This document shows, piece after piece, positions 34,936 through 36,850 of a DNA stretch of 37,391 nucleotides. Position 1 is the stretch's first letter. The number at the start of each line of letters is the position of its first letter. A program made the position numbers and the translations under genes. Source of the DNA: Anaerolineae bacterium. GTDB taxonomy: Bacteria; Chloroflexota; Anaerolineae; Anaerolineales; RBG-16-64-43. Below the pieces are notes generated by a model. The model searched no databases and was not told the DNA's origin. It was given only the letters and a program-made list of their open reading frames with translations. The stretch is taken from positions 1 to 37,391 of the forward strand of contig PLND01000008.1 in NCBI GenBank assembly GCA_003141675.1. Direction: 5' to 3'.

Positions 34936-34965
34936 AAAAACGCCGTCGTTATCGGCGGCGTTTTT
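34936..34965 (-). terminator. Terminator after the tRNA gene
   Basis: Arms AAAAACGCCG (34936-34945) and CGGCGTTTTT (34956-34965) enclose a ten-base loop. On the - strand the stem starts two bases after the tRNA 3' end and finishes in five T. It is symmetrical and could stop transcription from either side. Confidence 0.9.
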
Positions 34966-34966
34966 G

Positions 34967-35039
34967 TGTCCCAGGAGGGAATTGAACCCCCAACCTTGGC
35001 CTTAGGGGAGCCCTGCTCTATCCGTTGAGCTACTGGGAC
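34967..35039 (-). tRNA. tRNA-Arg (anticodon CCU), unusual anticodon arm
   Basis: A 73-base cloverleaf can be drawn. The acceptor stem is GTCCCAG with CTGGGAC (seven pairs), D arm GCTC/GAGC, T arm GGGGG with CCCTC around TTCAATT, and a five-base variable loop; A is the discriminator and CCA is not encoded. The anticodon loop reads CCCCTAA, giving anticodon CCT (codon AGG) at 35004-35006. Two features are abnormal: position 33 is C (35007), where T is nearly universal, and pair 27-43 is G-A, with a G-T pair at 31-39. The gene may still be functional or be a decaying copy. A strong terminator follows directly. Confidence 0.8.
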
Positions 35040-35097
35040 GCGATCCCTCGCCCTCGCTTCGCTTCGGGGTCGGGATGAGATCGTTACCGATTTAAAA

Positions 35098-35862
35098 TTA
35101 TACCGCCTCCTCAATCGCGCTCCGCACCCGGCCGGCCATTGCGCCGAATGTTTTCGTATACATCATCTCCGTTCGCCGCGGACGCGGAAGATCCACGGCC
35201 ATTTCCATCCGCAATCTGCCCGGCCGCGAGGTGAGCACCAGCACCCGGTCCGCCAGCAAAATCGCTTCCGGAATCGAATGGGTCACGAGCACCACGGTCT
35301 TCTTCCGCGATTGGGCGATGCGCATCACTTCGGATTCCATGCGCTCGCGGGTGAGGGCGTCCAGCGCGGCGAAGGGTTCGTCCAGCAGAAGCACTTCCGG
35401 ATCGTGCGCCAGGGCCCGCGCCAGTGCCACCCGTTGCGCCATCCCCCCGGAAAGTTCGCGCGGAAGGCTGCGCTCGAATCCCGCCAGGCCGACCAGTTCG
35501 ATCAGCCCATTCACGGTTTTTTTCGCCATTTCCGGCGCAATGCCGCTGATCTCCAGGGGAAGCAGGATGTTGCGCTCGACGCTGCGCCACGGCATTAAAT
35601 TCGAGCGCTGGAAGACAAACCCGATCCGGGACACCGGACCCGTCAATTCCCATCCCTCGATCAACACCCGCCCGGTCGTTGGGCGCAGCAACCCACCCAG
35701 AAGGCGCAACAGGGTGCTCTTCCCGCAGCCCGACGGTCCGACAACGCAGACGAACTCTTCCCTGCCCACGGCGAAGGAAACCTCCCCCAGGGCGCGCACT
35801 TCGGTTTCGCCGCCGGTGTATTCGGCCGTAAGGTTGATCGCCTGCAGGATGGGTGCCTTCAT
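35098..35862 (-). CDS. ABC importer ATP-binding protein (SsuB/TauB/ThiZ type)
   Basis: From ATG 35862 (GAGG just upstream) the ATPase has 254 residues with Walker A GPSGCGKST (42-50), Q-loop VFQRSNLMPW, signature LSGGM (137-141), Walker B VLLLDEP (157-163) and H-loop THSIPEA. The sequence type (nitrate/sulphonate/taurine importer family) fits the NMT1-like binding protein and the permease encoded upstream, 19 bases and about 1.1 kb away. It energises uptake across the membrane. Between its stop and the tRNA 5' end are 58 bases with a short inverted repeat (ATCCC/GGGAT). Confidence 0.94.
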   Translation of the reverse strand: MKAPILQAINLTAEYTGGETEVRALGEVSFAVGREEFVCVVGPSGCGKSTLLRLLGGLLRPTTGRVLIEGWELTGPVSRIGFVFQRSNLMPWRSVERNILLPLEISGIAPEMAKKTVNGLIELVGLAGFERSLPRELSGGMAQRVALARALAHDPEVLLLDEPFAALDALTRERMESEVMRIAQSRKKTVVLVTHSIPEAILLADRVLVLTSRPGRLRMEMAVDLPRPRRTEMMYTKTFGAMAGRVRSAIEEAV

Positions 35863-35881
35863 TTCCTCATCTTCCTGCCGC

Positions 35882-36850
35882 CTACTGCGGGAGATAATCA
35901 TTCGTAAAAGCCTGCGTGATGTCGAGCGGCTTGGTCAGCAGGCCCATTGATCGTAGCGTGGAGTCCATGTTCTGCCAGGCGGCGGGATCGCTCCAGCCGG
36001 CTTTGCCGGTCTTCCAGAAGCTGAGCGTTTGAGCGAGTACCTGGCGTTGCACGGGATCGTTTTCCGCCAAACCGTCGATGTACTTTCGGCAGGTTTCATA
36101 GGCCGCACCCGGATTCGATACGGCGTCGTCCACGCCCCGGAGAATGGCGCGGATCATCGCCCGCAGTAACGCGGGATCGTTTTTAATAGTCGATTCGTTG
36201 GTGAGCAAGCCGTTCGAGGCCAAGTTGACAAAGTCTGCCACGCGGATCACGTTCACCTTGTACCCGCGCGCCTCCAGTTGTATAGGTTCGTTGTTGGCGT
36301 AGATCACGGCGGCGTCCACCGTTCCCGCAATCAGTGCTTCCACCTGGTTGTATCCGATGACGTCAAGCGTTACGTCCTGCTCGGACATTCCCGCGGAATT
36401 CAGGAGAGCCCGGAACCCGACATAAGAGGCACCCGCCAAAATCGGGATCCCGACTTTCTTTCCTTTTAAATCCTGGACCGTCCGGATTCCGGAAGTCTCC
36501 AGCGCGGCGACGGCGACGGGATATCCGTGCCACCAGGCCATCGCGTAAACCACCGGAAGCCCCTGAGCCCGCGCCAGCAGCACTTGTTCCCCCGATGCCA
36601 CCGAGAATGGAATCTCGCCGGCGCCCACCAAGGCCACGCCGTCGGTCTCGAATTTATAATCGAAGGTGATATCGATGCCCGCTTCCCGGAAGTAACCCTT
36701 CTCCAGCGCAACGTAGAACGGCGCGAATTGTACATTGGGGATGTAGCCCATCGGCAGGCGGATGGTGCGCAGGGAGGGCGTGCCGTTCGGGGCGTGCGTG
36801 CACGCCGCAAGGAGAGTGAAGTATGCAATTAATAAGAAAAAGCGTTTCAT
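35882..36850 (-). CDS. NMT1/THI5-like ABC substrate-binding lipoprotein
   Basis: From ATG 36850 (AGGAG eight or nine bases upstream) the product has 322 residues. The lipobox LLAAC places the lipid on Cys17. The mature part begins with TIRLPMGYIPNVQFAPFYVALEKGYFREAGIDI, the hallmark of the NMT1/THI5-like family, followed by FSVASGEQVLLARAQGLPVV, DLKGKKVGIPILAGASYVGF and GTVDAAVIYANNEPIQLE. Known relatives bind thiamine pyrimidine precursors (ThiY), sulphonates, taurine or riboflavin, so the ligand cannot be named; a pyrimidine such as formylaminopyrimidine is one option. The longer open frame reaching 37216 overlaps the permease and is not used. Confidence 0.92.
   Translation of the reverse strand: MKRFFLLIAYFTLLAACTHAPNGTPSLRTIRLPMGYIPNVQFAPFYVALEKGYFREAGIDITFDYKFETDGVALVGAGEIPFSVASGEQVLLARAQGLPVVYAMAWWHGYPVAVAALETSGIRTVQDLKGKKVGIPILAGASYVGFRALLNSAGMSEQDVTLDVIGYNQVEALIAGTVDAAVIYANNEPIQLEARGYKVNVIRVADFVNLASNGLLTNESTIKNDPALLRAMIRAILRGVDDAVSNPGAAYETCRKYIDGLAENDPVQRQVLAQTLSFWKTGKAGWSDPAAWQNMDSTLRSMGLLTKPLDITQAFTNDYLPQ

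Follow-up and report, generated by a model that had tools for sequence, protein, structure and literature searches.

Does a tRNA gene that has lost U33, among the most constant of tRNA bases, still specify a working tRNA? The window, the whole stretch of 37,391 nucleotides analysed here from an Anaerolineae bacterium, raises this question with a tRNA-Arg(CCU) gene on its minus strand that carries C at position 33. The initial annotation had described C33, an unpaired G27-A43 and a U31-G39 wobble, and had taken the gene for a decaying or rewired minor tRNA or for the product of a sequencing error. All three positions were read likewise from the letters of the window, which give the anticodon arm GGGCU CCCCUAA GGCCA:

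34967..35039, minus strand: tRNA-Arg(CCU), with position 1 at 35039, position 73 at 34967 and CCA absent from the DNA
35009..35013, minus strand: 5' side of the anticodon stem, GGGCU, positions 27-31, read from the letters
35002..35004, minus strand: U36-A37-A38, read from the letters, the t6A37 determinant motif according to PMC9654439
35002..35008, minus strand: anticodon loop CCCCUAA, positions 32-38, read from the letters
35007..35007, minus strand: position 33, C in the tRNA and G on the plus strand
35004..35006, minus strand: anticodon CCU, positions 34-36, read from the letters and called by ARAGORN
34997..35001, minus strand: 3' side of the anticodon stem, GGCCA, positions 39-43, with the G27·A43 mismatch and the U31·G39 wobble

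With C at 35007 (minus strand), the gene lacks the U33 by which an elongator tRNA is recognised. ARAGORN nevertheless called an arginine tRNA with anticodon CCU at 34966-35039 on the minus strand. Infernal with Rfam RF00005, a check that the initial annotation had proposed, placed the gene at 34967-35039 and gave it 57.8 bits, above the gathering cut-off of 29. This is a standard score for a tRNA, and the match spans the whole model (1-71 of 71), which assigns the gene to the tRNA family. Conserved tRNA bases include a T loop with G53-C61 as well as U8, A14, G18 and G19; by eye, in the sequence and the RF00005 alignment, the T loop is closed by G53-C61 and the other four bases are present. The bacterial arginine identity bases, A20 and C35, are also present, the former as the A after two G in the D loop AACGGAUA and the latter in the anticodon CCU. 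No second copy of tRNA-Arg(CCU) was found in this genome.

The anticodon stem was compared with that of 61 further order genomes in which the gene was completely readable (L032-L057, L062-L070, L072-L074 and L115-L139); these are the order genomes with loci returned, duplicates being counted once and the present genome kept apart, and not a random draw. Non-standard 27-43 pairs, either A·G or G·A, occurred in 25 of the 61, and G27·A43 is common to the family members G001-G004. At 31-39, 52 genomes had A·C or A·G and nine a standard pair, while U31·G39 stood beside a normal U33 in five. The wobble of the present gene is therefore a better closing pair than the 31-39 positions of most of these relatives. 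Outside the order (class or phylum, n = 17), the 31-39 pair was standard in 17 and the 27-43 pair in 16. A non-standard 31-39 position beside the tRNA-Arg(CCU) anticodon loop is thus widespread in the order (52/61) as against 0/17 outside it. Separately, we observed A31·G39 in the anticodon stem of a tRNA with anticodon CAU, both in the present genome (L017) and in G003. U33 occurred in all 61 order genomes, as did C32, whereas the present copy has C33. Judged by these alignments, C33 is the only unusual one among the stem and loop oddities of the gene.

The rarity of C33 was further examined by pattern scans. Among 400 genomes of the order (patterns GYTCA...GGAYAGARC, other D arms not being counted), the U33 pattern was found in 329, the C33 pattern in one, which is the present genome, and neither pattern in 70; the genomes listed for the U33 and C33 scans look the same, and the genome counts are tallies. 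Among 400 genomes of the phylum, scanned with the stricter GCTCA...GGAYAGAGC that was also used for the wider collection described below, the gene was matched with any base at position 33 in 312 and with C33 again only in the present genome. Within this genome ARAGORN called 39 tRNAs, of which 38 have U33; one further Infernal match, a tRNA-Leu by eye that is broken by NN (L146), was left unscored for position 33. The initial annotation had allowed that C33 might turn out to be a normal variant shared by many relatives, but no relative searched nearby carries it. Among the genomes searched nearby, C33 is, as far as their sequences go, private to this genome.

A base seen in one genome only may be an assembly or sequencing error at 35007, or the base of a minority strain, the true tRNA having U33. 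Results of both scans favour such an error, since the single C33 genome among 400 of the order and among 400 of the phylum was the present one each time, and no independent assembly of the species was found. NN joins also cut tRNA genes elsewhere in the assembly: by eye, a tRNA-Leu is split by NN (L146, G000:C65 near 2829-2887), and NN lies between tRNA-Ser(GCU) and tRNA-Arg(GCG) (L147, G000:C34 near 147622), where only the 3' end of Arg-GCG is present. On the other hand, the window contains no N, the tRNA is internal to a contig of 44.8 kb, the other bases specific to this copy are structurally sensible, and no other genome among the 400 of the order showed C33, so that errors of this kind are, at the least, infrequent here. 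We regard a base error as possible, though much less likely than a real C33.

The same joins concern a reduced tRNA set, which we considered and rejected. Arg-GCG, Arg-CCG, Leu-UAA, Pro-CGG and Val-UAC were called in G001 and G003 and uncalled in the present genome, but two of the five absences are assembly cuts (the Leu gene and Arg-GCG). A search of the present genome for the tRNA-Arg(CCG) that G001 and G003 carry found none, which proves little. CGG nonetheless accounts for 1,682 of the 5,107 arginine codons sampled, although tRNA-Arg(CCG) is unmatched there. G003 (L184) and G001 (L216) carry a tRNA-Arg with anticodon GCG; the usual bacterial form is ACG (inosine).

The next question is whether the gene is already failing. 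Its RF00005 score of 57.8 bits lies between those of two relatives with U33 (G003, 60.9; G001, 57.5). In an alignment of eight copies, four bases were specific to the present one, namely U2 with A71, U31 and C33. The first two convert the acceptor pair C2-G71 into a compensated U2-A71, and U31 turns an A31·G39 mismatch into the U31·G39 wobble. The flanks were as follows:

35098..35901, minus strand: upstream reading frame, by eye an ABC-type ATPase, from the reading of open reading frames
35097..35102, minus strand: TATAAT, probably a -10 box, overlapping the stop codon of this frame
34941..34957, minus strand: hairpin and T run resembling an intrinsic terminator, just 3' of the tRNA

TATAAT precedes the tRNA in all four family loci that have upstream sequence (the present one, G001, G003 and G004; about 110 upstream bases were compared), the fifth, G002, lying at a contig edge. 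G001 and G003 show, by eye, the same end of the upstream frame together with TATAAT, and a generic scan around the tRNA gave no two-hexamer sigma-70 promoter. The family genes G001-G004 are thus like the present one in cloverleaf and in G27·A43, with TATAAT upstream in G001, G003 and G004. Relative to its orthologues, the gene has no lowered score, no newly broken stem and no lost flanking signal of the kind that mark a pseudogene, and it does not look dead by these signs.

Divergence was considerable all the same. Of the 33 tRNA kinds compared, tRNA-Arg(CCU) has diverged the most, with seven differences to G003 and eight to G001 where the median is 1 for both relatives; its lead is small, the next values being 5 and 7, and the ranking leaves aside tRNA-Met (1 and 0 differences), in which several kinds share CAU. 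Between G003 and G001, tRNA-Arg(CCU) has five differing sites. Because the present copy and those of G003 and G001 all diverge from one another, tRNA-Arg(CCU) seems weakly constrained across the whole family. High divergence would be expected for a weakly constrained isoacceptor, and it also fits the start of decay.

Such a start of decay, in which tRNA-Arg(UCU) reads AGG and the CCU tRNA drifts toward loss, would draw on this top rank in divergence, on the presence of a backup tRNA and on the infrequency of AGG (below). It is opposed by the compensated acceptor pair, the score in the range of the relatives and the retained -10 box, and weak pairs at 27-43 and 31-39 occur often in the order and are no sign of damage. 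Decay as put forward by the initial annotation is thus supported neither by what the copy shares with its relatives nor by the bases that it has alone, a compensated acceptor pair, a mismatch turned into a wobble and U33C. We also considered misfolding caused by C33, since the minimum-energy fold is not the cloverleaf and has the bases of the anticodon loop paired to the variable loop and to the T stem on its 5' side. This was dropped as an effect of C33, the gap from cloverleaf to best fold being 1.6 kcal/mol as against a median of 1.7 in U33 tRNAs (a rough model over 95 rows including duplicates; 15 of the 95 gaps were above 10, which were retained and taken as mis-registered arms). The ordinary size of this gap in the rough model likewise argues against decay, which we consider unlikely.

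How much the cell would depend on this tRNA was judged from codon use. In 176 long ORFs from 12 stretches, AGG made up 314 of 5,107 arginine codons, or 4.7 per 1000 codons, and AGA was rarer (204 of the same 5,107); AGG is infrequent but not negligible in this genome. tRNA-Arg(UCU) can read AGG by ordinary wobble, and an intact tRNA-Arg(UCU) with U33 was found in the genome (L011), which bears out the suggestion of the initial annotation that the CCU tRNA could be redundant. The genome also encodes homologues of TsaD and TsaB, both over their cut-offs. A review (PMC9654439) describes U36-A37-A38 as the universal determinant of t6A37; its section 4.1 states that C33 acts as an anti-determinant when the bacterial TsaD-TsaB-TsaE complex makes t6A. 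The loop CCCCUAA contains the determinant, and it also contains the C33 that a substrate should lack. The human mitochondrial homologue OSGEPL1 is reported as not significantly affected by U33C (PMC7102964), which weighs against a loss of t6A here. Since C33 is the stated anti-determinant for the bacterial enzymes, A37 of this tRNA may lack t6A, and AGG may be decoded less well. The word "rewired" in the initial annotation can stand only in this mild form, as a possible loss of t6A37 and a weaker decoding of AGG in line with the literature; nothing stronger survives.

C33 was then sought beyond the phylum. A scan of a GTDB-based collection, which may omit the present or very near genomes, gave 24 stretches with a C33 Arg-CCU pattern, by title 15 archaeal and nine bacterial (eight genomes). 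Five of the nine bacterial stretches (L091, L100, L108, L110 and L111) have an ARAGORN tRNA call where the pattern matched. L091 is from Adlercreutzia, L108 from a Kaiserbacteria MAG, L110 and L111 are contigs of a single Clostridia MAG, and L100, from Nitrospiraceae, is a doubtful C33 copy with a doubtful T arm. At the matched C33 place of L095 and L106 ARAGORN called no tRNA, and on L099 and L113 it called a separate and complete tRNA with U33 elsewhere on the stretch; these four are apparent C33 fragments of tRNA-Arg(CCU) by their sequence. They are possibly remnants of attachment sites or of duplications. Among the 15 archaeal stretches, eight were called Arg-CCU, six received other names with an intron, and L107 was uncalled at the place. 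The six (L094, L096, L097, L101, L103 and L105) are Arg-CCU-like genes with C33 for which ARAGORN proposes introns and the names Pyl, Ser or Phe. All five anticodon-stem pairs were standard in 12 of the 24 stretches. These scattered genes share the loop CCCCUAA with the present gene, and a tRNA was called in most of the stretches; unlike it, they belong to distant lineages, 15 of the 24 being archaeal and six of those having called introns. In genome collections of this sort, archaea make up a small part. On these matches, C33 in tRNA-Arg(CCU) is rare but recurrent, with archaea prominent.

Other departures from U33 are known: animal initiator tRNAs carry C33, and a Candida tRNA-Ser carries G33. 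On bacterial tRNA-Arg(CCU) with C33 we recognised no publication in a partial coverage of the literature. The tRNA-Cys(GCA) of Sulfolobales is described as having a natural C33 (PMC7668247); it resembles the present gene as a natural prokaryotic elongator gene with C33, and differs in being archaeal, of another isoacceptor and with G27·U43. In yeast tRNA-Gln(CUG) (SUP70), U33C and U33A increased pseudohyphal growth while U33G behaved like wild type, and the authors regard the extra growth as preliminary evidence that decoding had become worse (PMC3664417). U33C in tRNA-Gln(UUG) is reported to abolish the tRNA-induced acetyl-CoA hydrolysis by human Elongator (PMC11096365). The base change in these two reports is the one seen here, but both concern laboratory mutants of eukaryotic tRNAs; Elongator acts on U34, and the present tRNA has C34, so that the Elongator effect is inapplicable.

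That distant lineages, archaeal in 15 of the 24 stretches, also have Arg-CCU tRNAs with C33 could be read as a mark of selection, in which slowed decoding of AGG or a blocked t6A37 is advantageous and AGG serves as a regulatory codon. The link drawn between C33 and lost t6A in the review (PMC9654439) would suit this, but only one of 400 order genomes has the base, and we hold selection for C33 to be improbable. Least credible of all is a turn base moved to U31, with a nine-base loop from U31 to G39, an anticodon CCC or CCCC and a frameshifting tRNA: the U31·G39 wobble could open and U31 does precede a run of four C, but the same wobble accompanies a normal U33 in five of the 61 order genomes, and the loop called by ARAGORN and Infernal has the standard seven bases rather than the eight or more of a frameshift suppressor.

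The reading that we prefer, with a probability of about 0.6, is a real, single-copy and probably transcribed tRNA-Arg(CCU) in which U33C has been tolerated on the lineage of this genome within a redundant minor tRNA. U33 would have been replaced by C on this lineage only. The C would make a poorer U-turn and hence a slower or leakier reader of AGG, and the tRNA would be a poor substrate for TsaD-TsaB-TsaE, with A37 perhaps left without t6A. Because an intact U33 tRNA-Arg(UCU) is present and would cover AGG by wobble, the CCU tRNA would be a helper, and selection may tolerate C33 given the infrequency of AGG and the ability of tRNA-Arg(UCU) to read it. A more specific form of the preferred reading, a natural AGG-reading bacterial tRNA that C33 takes out of t6A37 modification and that works weakly with tRNA-Arg(UCU) as backup, we put forward tentatively and think more doubtful than true.

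If the base is an error, tRNA-Arg(CCU) is ordinary here. If it is real, this single-copy elongator gene, intact apart from C33, shows that the U33 rule can be relaxed in a minor isoacceptor with a backup, and it would provide a natural substrate on which to test whether C33 blocks t6A synthesis in bacteria, as reported. The loss of t6A37 may be the most interesting testable consequence of C33; if this dropout is true, the organism would offer a natural test of whether every ANN-reading tRNA needs t6A.
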